A DNA stretch of 64,000 nucleotides from contig DATIGE010000003.1 of assembly GCA_035454885.1 (NCBI GenBank), positions 1 through 64,000 on the forward strand, given 5' to 3'. Shown one piece after another: positions 57,573-60,519 of the stretch (positions are counted from its first letter, which is position 1; every line of letters begins with the position of its first letter). The notes under the pieces are model-generated. The model was given only the letters and a program-made list of their open reading frames with translations, was not told the origin of the DNA and made no database searches. Source of the stretch: a bacterium (GTDB taxonomy: Bacteria; UBA10199; JACPAL01; GCA-016699445). Both the position numbers and the translations under genes were made by a program.

Positions 57573-58427
57573 ATGGTCGAGAACTTCCTGATCATCCCGT
57601 TCTTACGGAGCATGGACCCGGTGTGGGTCTCGCTCGGCCCCCTGCTCACCATCAACGCCCTCTTCCTGATGACCCTGTTTTTCTTTTGGTTCACGTACCG
57701 GCGGCGGCCAAAGACCCAAGATGTTGATTTAAAAGAGCATTCGAAGTTTCTTTCCCGTTTCCTCAAGGAATATTGGTACTGGCTCACCTCCCCGATCGTC
57801 CGTGTGATGGTGAAACTCCGTTTCACGCCGAACGGGCTCACCGTCTGCGGCTTCCTGCTCTCGTGCGTGGCGGCCTATTTCTTCAGCCTGGGGATGGTCG
57901 GCGCGGGCGGTTGGTTCATGATCTTCGGCGCGACCTTCGACATGTTTGACGGACAGATCGCGCGGATGACGGGCAAGGCGTCGAAGTCCGGCGCTTTTTT
58001 CGATTCCGTCATGGACCGTTTCGGGGAGGCCGTCGTCTTTCTGGGGCTGGCGGGCCTCTACCGGAATTCCTGGATCCTCTACGTCACGATCCTCGGCCTC
58101 GTGGGATCGATGATGGTCTCCTACACCCGCGCGCGGGGCGAAGGCGTGGGCGTGGACGTCAAGAGCGGGTTCATGCAACGGCCGGAGCGGATCGTCTACC
58201 TGGGCGTTGGCTCCATCTTCAGCCCCATCCTCGCCTATTTTCTCCGCTTCCTCGTCCCGTCCGTGCCCCTCGACATCGTCACGATCGGCGCGATCATCCT
58301 GATCGCGATCTTCACAAACGTGACCGCCCTTCACCGGATGGGGGTCGTCATGAAGACGCTCGATCCTCTCCCACGGGATACGCAACGCTCAGCCCGCCTG
58401 GCGGCCGGCCGGTCGTCGTTGGAATAA
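57573..58427 (+). CDS. CDP-alcohol phosphatidyltransferase family membrane protein
   Basis: Transfers a phosphatidyl (or phospho) group from a CDP-linked donor to an alcohol such as glycerol phosphate or inositol phosphate. It has 284 residues from ATG 57573; a TTG frame start at 57534 is less likely. The diagnostic motif D-x2-D-G-x2-A-R-x8-G-x3-D-x3-D is complete: D123, D126, G127, A130-R131, G140, D144, D148. It has an extra N-terminal membrane segment (LTINALFLMTLFFFWFTY) and about six helices in all. The exact acceptor cannot be read from sequence. It is convergent with the Tes-like gene, a possible lipid partner. Confidence 0.87.
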   Translation: MVENFLIIPFLRSMDPVWVSLGPLLTINALFLMTLFFFWFTYRRRPKTQDVDLKEHSKFLSRFLKEYWYWLTSPIVRVMVKLRFTPNGLTVCGFLLSCVAAYFFSLGMVGAGGWFMIFGATFDMFDGQIARMTGKASKSGAFFDSVMDRFGEAVVFLGLAGLYRNSWILYVTILGLVGSMMVSYTRARGEGVGVDVKSGFMQRPERIVYLGVGSIFSPILAYFLRFLVPSVPLDIVTIGAIILIAIFTNVTALHRMGVVMKTLDPLPRDTQRSARLAAGRSSLE

Positions 58428-58450
58428 CCTCGATATTGAGAGGAAACCGT

Positions 58451-58512
58451 GTAGGGGCGAACCTCGTGTTCGCCCGGCGCGACCGGAGGGCGAAGACAAG
58501 CTTCGCCCCTAC
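58451..58512. repeat. 62-bp intergenic palindromic element with GTAGGGGC ends
   Basis: It starts GTAGGGGCGAACCTCGTG and ends AAGCTTCGCCCCTAC, with a GC-rich middle (TTCGCCCGGCGCGACCGGAGGGCGAA). The ends are those of the 28-bp in-frame palindrome, but the body is longer and different. It fills the gap between two convergent genes, where it could serve as a bidirectional terminator. Confidence 0.7.
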
Positions 58513-58515
58513 CGA

Positions 58516-60519
58516 TCAATGCGAACACCCGCAGGAATCCCCGCACCCACCCTCTTTTTCCTTCAGGGCGATCTGCTCCGGCAGGCGGACGGTGTGCTCG
58601 TATTCTGGCACCGGCATCGGACGGCTGCCGGCGAAGACGTCGTGGCGTCCGTATTTTCGGTACCAATCGGCCACCGAGGCGTTCTTGAACATGTTCTCGA
58701 TGATCTGCCTCCATCCCACGCCCGTATTGTAGGCGCAGAAGGAGATTTCTCCTAACTGAGTCGCGTACGGGATGATGCACATCTCGGTCCGTCGGAAGTC
58801 GTAGTTGAAGAGGTCCTGAAACCACATGCCGGCGACGAACATGAAGTGCCACCGGTCCTTCTTTCGCTCGGCGCCCTGGCCGTAGTCGGCCTTTCCGCCC
58901 TTAAGGCCGCCGCCGCTCTGCTTGTCGAACTTACGGAGAAACTCCTTGAGCTTGAGCTTCTTCGGGGCCTTGCCCGGCCGGTAATTGCGCAACAGGGAGG
59001 TCGCGACCTCCATTTTCGTGAGCCAGTTGGGCTGGGCGGCGTCCGTGATGTCCTGGACGTCGTCCACGAACTTGTCCAGGCGGATGAATTCCGAGATGGG
59101 CAGCCATTCGCGGTCCTGCTTGTCCACCATGAGTCCCATGGCAATGCCGCAGTTCGGGTGACACCCGCACTTGAGCGTCCCCCACTCCTGGTTCGGCCCC
59201 TTCATGAGGTCCGCGAGATCCGCGAACGGCCCCGCGGACGAAAGCGGAAACCAATCGCGGAGAGGCTCGGAGATGCCCGTCTGCTTCTTCACGTCGTGGG
59301 CCAGGTGCGAAAGCGTGTAGCGCTGCTTCATCCGGCTTTCGTCGTCGATGTCCTCGTCGCGTCCCGTAAACGAGACGGGCTGGAAGGCGCAGAACGTGAT
59401 CTTGTCGGAGTTCTGCACCGCGAAGTCGATGATCGGGCCGACCTGGTGGTCGTTGATGGTGTTGACGATGGTGATGACGAGCACGACGTCGATGCCCGCG
59501 TTGTAGAGGTTCGTGATGGCGCGGAGTTTGACGTCGAAGAGGTTCGAGATCTTGCGGTGCTCGTTGTTCTCGTTCCCCACCCCGTCGAACTGGAGGTAGG
59601 CGATGCGCATGCCGGAGTCATAGGCCGCCTTGGCGAACTCGGGCTCCTGGGCGAAGCGGATGCCGTTCGTCGCCGCCTGGATGCTGAAATAGCCCACGTC
59701 CTTGGCATACTTGACCGCCTGCAGAAAGTGCGGAGACAGCGTCGGCTCGCCGCCGGAGAATTGAACGGACATCTGCCGCTTGGGCTTGATCTTGAGGGAG
59801 TTGTCCAGGATTTCCTGGATCTCCTCCCACGCGAGCTCGTGGACGTAACCGACCTGGTTCGCATCCATGAAGCAGGGATCGCACATCATGTTGCAGCGAT
59901 TCGTCAGATCCACCGTCAACACGGAACCCCGCCCATACAGGATCGAGGAAGATCCGTGATTGCGCAGGTTCGTCAGCGGCGACTTGAAATCGCGGCCCGG
60001 GTACAGTTTTTCGATGCGCTTCAAAAACTTCGGATCCATCGCCATCACGTCCTCGAAGTGCCCGTGCTTGGGACAATCCTTCACCATGAGGATCTCGCCG
60101 TTCCGCTCGATGATCTCCGCCTTGATCTCGCCCGGATTTTCGTTGATCAGATGCGTGTAGTCCTTGACGCCAGAGACGATCTCCTTACGAGACTCCTGAA
60201 CGCAGCGGGGGCAGAGAGAATCGGTCACGCGGGGCCAGCCGAGCTGCGGGAAGGTCTTTTCCTTCTTCTTGAGAAGGGGCGCCGGGGCCCACTGGGGCTG
60301 GAACGGCTTACCCTGGTGAACCTTGTTGATGAACTGGAAGACGGGCCAGGCCGCCCGCGCCGCAGCGACCAGGAGGCGCTCGCCGAGCTTAAAACCGCCC
60401 TGCTCGAGCTTATTGGAGGCGAGGGCCCCGTTGCCGCCGGTCTTGTAGACCATGTCGGGCTTCGGGGATTCCTGACCCTTTTGCATCTCTTCGAGTTCGT
60501 TGTAGGCGACGGCTGCCAT
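58516..60519 (-). CDS. Tes-like radical SAM enzyme, candidate membrane-spanning-lipid synthase
   Basis: A 667-residue radical SAM protein; AAGGAG lies 7 bases before the ATG. Features: an N-terminal CPRC (103-106) with DCPKHGHFE (148-156), then VDLTNRCNMMCDPCF with the cluster triad C209, C213, C216, GGEP at 256-259, and a long C-terminal part with CGCHPNCG, RTEMCIIPYATQ and a final GCGDSCGCSH. This layout (CxxC / CPxHG, then radical SAM) is that of the MJ0619/Tes family; archaeal Tes joins two lipid chains to make tetraethers, and bacterial homologues are implicated in membrane-spanning lipids. The substrate is unproven. Neighbouring phosphatidyltransferase and trxA genes fit a lipid or redox context. 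The extra Cys clusters suggest auxiliary Fe-S sites. Confidence 0.72.
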   Translation of the reverse strand: MAAVAYNELEEMQKGQESPKPDMVYKTGGNGALASNKLEQGGFKLGERLLVAAARAAWPVFQFINKVHQGKPFQPQWAPAPLLKKKEKTFPQLGWPRVTDSLCPRCVQESRKEIVSGVKDYTHLINENPGEIKAEIIERNGEILMVKDCPKHGHFEDVMAMDPKFLKRIEKLYPGRDFKSPLTNLRNHGSSSILYGRGSVLTVDLTNRCNMMCDPCFMDANQVGYVHELAWEEIQEILDNSLKIKPKRQMSVQFSGGEPTLSPHFLQAVKYAKDVGYFSIQAATNGIRFAQEPEFAKAAYDSGMRIAYLQFDGVGNENNEHRKISNLFDVKLRAITNLYNAGIDVVLVITIVNTINDHQVGPIIDFAVQNSDKITFCAFQPVSFTGRDEDIDDESRMKQRYTLSHLAHDVKKQTGISEPLRDWFPLSSAGPFADLADLMKGPNQEWGTLKCGCHPNCGIAMGLMVDKQDREWLPISEFIRLDKFVDDVQDITDAAQPNWLTKMEVATSLLRNYRPGKAPKKLKLKEFLRKFDKQSGGGLKGGKADYGQGAERKKDRWHFMFVAGMWFQDLFNYDFRRTEMCIIPYATQLGEISFCAYNTGVGWRQIIENMFKNASVADWYRKYGRHDVFAGSRPMPVPEYEHTVRLPEQIALKEKEGGCGDSCGCSH

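Follow-up and report, generated by a model that had tools for sequence, protein, structure and literature searches.

Does the radical S-adenosylmethionine (SAM) gene near the end of a 64,000-nucleotide stretch of contig DATIGE010000003.1, referred to below as the window, equip its UBA10199 host to build membrane-spanning lipids? The first-pass annotation had read the 667-residue product as Tes-like and had set it, together with an adjacent CDP (cytidine diphosphate)-alcohol phosphatidyltransferase, in a possible pathway to such lipids. On balance, we favour an affirmative answer: the window protein probably couples two glycerolipid chains through their tail ends to give a membrane-spanning lipid resembling diabolic acid or a branched glycerol dialkyl glycerol tetraether (brGDGT), a reaction and a substrate suggested by sequence and predicted structure. 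The brGDGTs are widely used as palaeothermometers in soils and lakes, although knowledge of which organisms produce them, and how, is incomplete.

Family membership and metal sites

The window protein gives Pfam matches to PF04055 (E 3.8e-18) and to the zinc ribbon PF23545 (E 8.5e-13), and among NCBIfam models it scores best against the Tes equivalog NF045702 (E 8e-99, 331 bits), with TrsS as runner-up at 208 bits. Residues 132-622 align with PDB entry 7tol, the GDGT-MAS of Methanocaldococcus jannaschii, at E 1.5e-67. When an AlphaFold2 model built from 33 window and locus sequences (predicted local distance difference test score, pLDDT, 75.5; predicted template-modelling score, pTM, 0.82) is submitted to Foldseek, 7tom (E 3e-30, template-modelling score 0.79 of the target) and 7tol (E 3e-29, 0.80 of the target) are returned, and the next solved fold, MoaA, follows at E 2e-7, 22 orders worse. 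The predicted fold follows the GDGT-MAS catalytic chain along its entire length, through to the C-terminal region that makes up the lipid pocket. By sequence and by predicted fold, the window protein is thus a Tes/GDGT-MAS homologue over its full length, which bears out the identity first proposed for it.

The M. jannaschii enzyme (MjTes) has a rubredoxin-like iron site (C9, C12, C33, H36), an N-terminal [4Fe-4S] cluster (C73, C77, C80 and a His), the radical SAM cluster, and a C-terminal auxiliary [4Fe-4S] cluster, in which Met439 is a labile ligand and on which the first substrate carbon is held (PMC9433317). Ligand positions were compared across an alignment of 135 Tes-type sequences, namely 110 members of the bacterial subfamily to which the window protein belongs and 25 others (MjTes and other bacterial homologues). 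The gene and its elements are as follows.

58516..60519 (-): radical SAM gene (tes), 667 amino acids, Tes/GDGT-MAS family, bacterial subfamily without the N-terminal cluster
60232..60519 (-): subfamily-specific N-terminal extension, residues 1-96, with a helix predicted at residues 41-67 in the model and with W77 and P91 conserved (alignment A2)
60064..60213 (-): rubredoxin-like iron site, C103-x2-C106 ... C149-x2-H152, the halves set apart by ~20 inserted residues (PF23545)
59926..59979 (-): site at which the N-terminal auxiliary [4Fe-4S] cluster has been lost, residues 181-198, where the window protein reads RNHGSSSILYGRG
59872..59895 (-): radical SAM cluster motif, C209-x3-C213-x2-C216, invariant in the subfamily (PF04055)
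59149..59169 (-): C451-G-C453-H-P-N-C457 (CGCHPNCG), first part of the C-terminal auxiliary cluster, with two cysteines more than MjTes
58735..58779 (-): C581 and C595, the remaining cysteines of the C-terminal auxiliary cluster, each in 110/110 members
58525..58545 (-): C-terminal tail CGDSCGC, with pLDDT under 50

The three motifs that had suggested a Tes layout (CPxC, CPxHGxFE and CxxxCxxC) are indeed present in the 667-residue open reading frame, as CPRC (C103/C106), CPKHGHFE (C149/H152) and CNMMCDPC (C209/C213/C216). That first reading overlooked the missing middle CxxxCxxC site, which belongs to the N-terminal auxiliary cluster, and the two extra invariant cysteines of CGCHPNCG. At the rubredoxin-like site, cysteines 103, 106 and 149 are invariant in the subfamily save for one row; C149 and H152 align with C33 and H36 of MjTes, and C103 and C106 precede the alignable MjTes stretch. 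The radical SAM cysteines align with the MjTes ligand positions. The ligands of the N-terminal auxiliary cluster (CCCH) are found in 25/25 of the other Tes-type rows and in 0/110 subfamily rows, in which H188, S191, G196, R197 and G198 are invariant instead. C451, C453 and C457 are each present in 110/110 subfamily members, compared with a cysteine at position 451 in 5/17 and at position 453 in 11/18 of the other rows; M565, the equivalent of the labile Met439, is invariant in alignment A2. Taken together, all 110 members, or nearly all, retain the ligands that the published mechanism of MjTes calls for (PMC9433317).

Amphipathicity of the N-terminal extension is moderate in the window protein and high in most relatives. 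The tail CGDSCGC, which the first-pass annotation had singled out as an extra cluster, exists, but the pattern occurs in only two of the 110 subfamily rows, the window protein's included, within a variable tail, and it is rejected as a conserved functional cluster of the family.

On this architecture a tail-coupling reaction can be sketched. Two phospholipids, each with its head group, would enter the hydrophobic pockets; SAM would be cleaved at the C209/C213/C216 cluster, and the resulting 5'-deoxyadenosyl radical would abstract a hydrogen from the terminal carbon of one chain. The activated carbon would be held on a cluster sulfide at the C-terminal auxiliary site (C457, C581 and C595, with M565 and/or C451/C453 as labile ligand) while another SAM molecule is used to activate the other chain, after which the two carbons would be joined. 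The substrates would be bacterial acyl or alkyl chains of iso or normal type, and the C-terminal cluster would presumably receive its electrons without help from an N-terminal one.

Distribution of the subfamily and iso-diabolic acid

The subfamily is monophyletic, comprising sequences from UBA10199, Acidobacteriota and some Myxococcota that are mostly 57-77% identical, and it forms one side of a branch of length 2.57 with 100% support in the Shimodaira-Hasegawa-like approximate likelihood ratio test (SH-aLRT), in a quickly built tree with a single archaeal row and flagged long branches. Its members from Myxococcota, UBA10199 and most Acidobacteriota cluster by phylum. Named relatives at 57-68% identity include Granulicella aggregans, Acidipila rosea, Bryobacterales, Pyrinomonadaceae and Polyangium. 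The gene occurs in 23 of 46 UBA10199 class genomes (the window's own counted), in 77/81 genomes of Terriglobia, the class of Granulicella, in 55/58 of Blastocatellia, the class of Pyrinomonadaceae, and in 9/115 of Myxococcota. In a third acidobacterial class the same query that matched Terriglobia and Blastocatellia found it in 0/61 genomes, at the threshold of the Blastocatellia search (that for Terriglobia was stricter), an empty result that alone shows little. In each of four Granulicella and Acidipila genomes, the subfamily gene is the sole Tes-family match at E<=1e-40.

Some acidobacterial genomes carry more than one such gene. At three Terriglobia loci (L167, L168 and L169) an N-cluster-less Tes lies about 2-6 kb from an N-cluster-bearing homologue. 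A second subfamily copy, about 52% identical to the window protein, is found in many Blastocatellia and some Terriglobia (e.g. G071:C11, L177); the one such copy included in the tree branches at the subfamily base. Among the neighbours of 80 named loci, no strongly shared neighbourhood indicative of a conserved acidobacterial operon was found.

This profile can be set beside what is known of acidobacterial lipids. Iso-diabolic acid, likely a tail-to-tail dimer of iso-C15, is present in acidobacterial subdivisions 1, 3, 4 and 6 of seven surveyed, as summarised in PMC13274423. It makes up 12-30% of the fatty acids in Edaphobacter (PMC11354219) and 27-49% in Occallatibacter and relatives (PMC12935467), and it is found in Pyrinomonas (PMC4644332). 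Bacterial Tes homologues have already been proposed as brGDGT enzymes (Zeng et al. 2022, PMC8941075; Halamka et al. 2022, PMC10087280), and their activity in brGDGT synthesis is still unconfirmed (PMC11868695). In the brGDGT-making Edaphobacter aggregans, Zeng et al. (PMC8941075) reported just one homologue of Tes, which shares 32% identity with MA_1486; judging from that identity and from its relatives, it probably belongs to the N-cluster-less subfamily. The active site of MjTes binds ordinary Escherichia coli phospholipids (PMC9433317).

The link to bacterial membrane-spanning lipids drawn at first pass is therefore plausible, given the near-universal gene in two classes, the groups in which iso-diabolic acid occurs, and the sole Tes-family gene of Granulicella and Acidipila. 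We favour tail coupling because these observations, together with the GDGT-MAS match in sequence and fold, ligand conservation, monophyly, the phospholipids in MjTes, and the genome's own PlsA/Ger-like gene pair and inositol-phosphate synthase (see below), point the same way. A broader proposal, which we hold tentatively and place a little short of an even chance, is that the N-cluster-less subfamily is the enzyme with which Acidobacteria make iso-diabolic acid and the brGDGT backbone, common to UBA10199 and some Myxococcota, and performs its C(sp3)-C(sp3) tail coupling with one metallocofactor fewer than archaeal Tes. The lost cluster is surface-exposed in MjTes and the lineages include many aerobes, which suggests that its loss may be an adaptation to oxygen. 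As the subfamily is near-universal in classes that make iso-diabolic acid and the sole Tes-family gene in several cultured strains, the brGDGT question is reducible to a single-gene test; if the proposal is true, UBA10199 and some Myxococcota join the list of possible producers of membrane-spanning lipids.

The best-surviving alternative, unlikely in our judgement, is a lipid-modifying radical SAM enzyme with another reaction (at another chain position, as an intramolecular cross-link, or in some other functionalisation of an acyl C-H), diabolic-acid coupling being left to Mss or to N-cluster-bearing Tes paralogues. The long stem branch and the many subfamily-specific invariant residues would suit such a shift, and both the nearby N-cluster-bearing Tes and the second copy frequent in Blastocatellia would allow a division of labour. 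Every ligand required by the Tes mechanism is nonetheless retained, and the four Granulicella and Acidipila genomes, whose relatives have iso-diabolic acid among their main lipids, show no further Tes-family gene at E<=1e-40 to which the coupling could be assigned.

The neighbouring transferase and the rest of the genome

57534..58427 (+): CDP-alcohol phosphatidyltransferase of phosphatidylinositol-phosphate-synthase type, convergent with tes, 88 bp between

Position 57573 is an in-frame ATG within this open reading frame. The lipid-type membrane transferase noted beside the radical SAM gene is confirmed (PF01066, E 5e-17). Because its closest solved relatives are the phosphatidylinositol-phosphate synthases 6h53 and 6wm5 and the window's genome encodes an inositol-phosphate synthase, a general role in head-group synthesis is most likely. 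Of the 21 UBA10199 genomes that hold both tes and the transferase, 17 have them side by side, in two orientations; several lineages show a co-directional unit made up of a MarR-type regulator followed by these two genes, and in the lineage of the window it is the transferase that lies inverted. What stands of the pathway first drawn from this pair is the adjacency and the lipid-type transferase. A dedicated partnership is rejected, as the transferase is a near-universal single-copy gene of the phylum, with or without tes, and the pairing lends weak support to a lipid context.

A second alternative is a Tes-fold enzyme acting on a non-lipid substrate (a cofactor or peptide), beside a lipid gene by chance. 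We regard this as distinctly improbable. TrsS, the second-best NCBIfam model, is not known as a lipid enzyme, and the wide occurrence of the transferase in genomes without tes fits such chance placement; against it stand an adjacency kept in two orientations and a fold match that runs through the pocket-forming C-terminal part of GDGT-MAS.

Several further observations concern these genes. In several UBA10199 genomes that lack a tes gene of the subfamily (L187-L190) the transferase is fused to a long C-terminal part, which at L187 2743-5061 (-) matches type I phosphodiesterase/nucleotide pyrophosphatase. In one UBA10199 family (L126, L128, L129) a glycerol kinase gene lies upstream of tes and a QueG-like gene, named by eye, downstream, with the transferase not adjacent. 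Upstream in the window, at 44968-57175 (+), three successive large cysteine-rich secreted-looking proteins (2494, 816 and 698 amino acids) carry CGDG...EECDDGN...GDGC repeats, with nine DUF4215 stretches in the 2494-residue one; the trio separates the transferase from genes that adjoin it directly in related genomes. An Rfam scan of the 64-kb window gave no matches.

Elsewhere in the window's genome no second Tes-like gene was found, the next match being a MoaA beside MoaBC. The genome does hold one two-gene unit (L183 6576-11807) with two BcrAD_BadFG stretches and DUF2229, next to a 585-residue protein without a Pfam match. In make-up the unit resembles the PlsA/Ger-type reductases, which combine two BcrAD_BadFG activase domains and DUF2229 with a reductase part; it is a candidate ester-to-ether reductase or CoA (coenzyme A)-type activase/dehydratase, as such proteins are not all ether-lipid enzymes.

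Several points weigh against tail coupling. The NF045702 score falls below the curated 450-bit cut-off for membership. The many subfamily-specific invariant changes and the loss of a metallocofactor would permit a different substrate or reaction. The transferase is found in 21/23 class genomes with tes and in 22/23 without. The class profile is confounded with ancestry, since Terriglobia and Blastocatellia have many other genes in common, and the lipid phenotype of the third acidobacterial class is one that we infer. Solibacter usitatus is a brGDGT maker without detectable iso-diabolic acid (PMC10087280). As for a degenerate Tes that catalyses no coupling, one of four metal sites is wholly lost, yet near-universality in two large classes, long invariant stretches and retention of the other ligands indicate strong purifying selection and make this very improbable.

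Comparison with known enzymes

Mss is reportedly the bacterial membrane-spanning lipid synthase of Thermotoga maritima, the work of Sahonero-Canavesi et al. in 2022. Its expected reaction is that of the window protein, and the Tes catalytic architecture is reportedly shared (PMC13274423). The T. maritima genome gives no match to the Tes family model at E<=1e-40, which suggests that Mss is not a close member of the Tes family. Gms, the GMGT (glycerol monoalkyl glycerol tetraether) synthase, is likewise a radical SAM enzyme, and it performs lipid C(sp3)-C(sp3) coupling with an N-terminal domain of six helices and a SPASM domain that holds two auxiliary clusters (PMC11186832), whereas the window protein has a rubredoxin-like site. 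SPASM is absent among its Pfam matches, and its top NCBIfam matches are Tes and TrsS; a Gms identity is rejected on domain content (PMC11186832).

With MJ0619, the Tes/GDGT-MAS of 7tol and 7tom and of model NF045702, the window protein shares the whole fold, the rubredoxin-like C2CH site, the CX3CX2C cluster, the C-terminal cluster cysteines and the equivalent of Met439. It differs in its identity of about 28%, its N-terminal helical extension, its two added C-terminal-cluster cysteines, its score below the family cut-off, and its lack, common to the subfamily, of the N-terminal auxiliary cluster. The subfamily can serve as a natural experiment on the question of which metal sites, out of the four in Tes, are required for coupling.

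The bacterial homologues of the Zeng and Halamka papers belong to the same superfamily and are treated there, in the text available, as one group. Neither the cofactor split nor the class-level profile was found in the cited literature on bacterial Tes homologues, and the two are what is added here to the published brGDGT proposal: by cofactor content, the N-cluster-less subfamily is cleanly split from the N-cluster-bearing bacterial homologues that are 35-40% identical to it.
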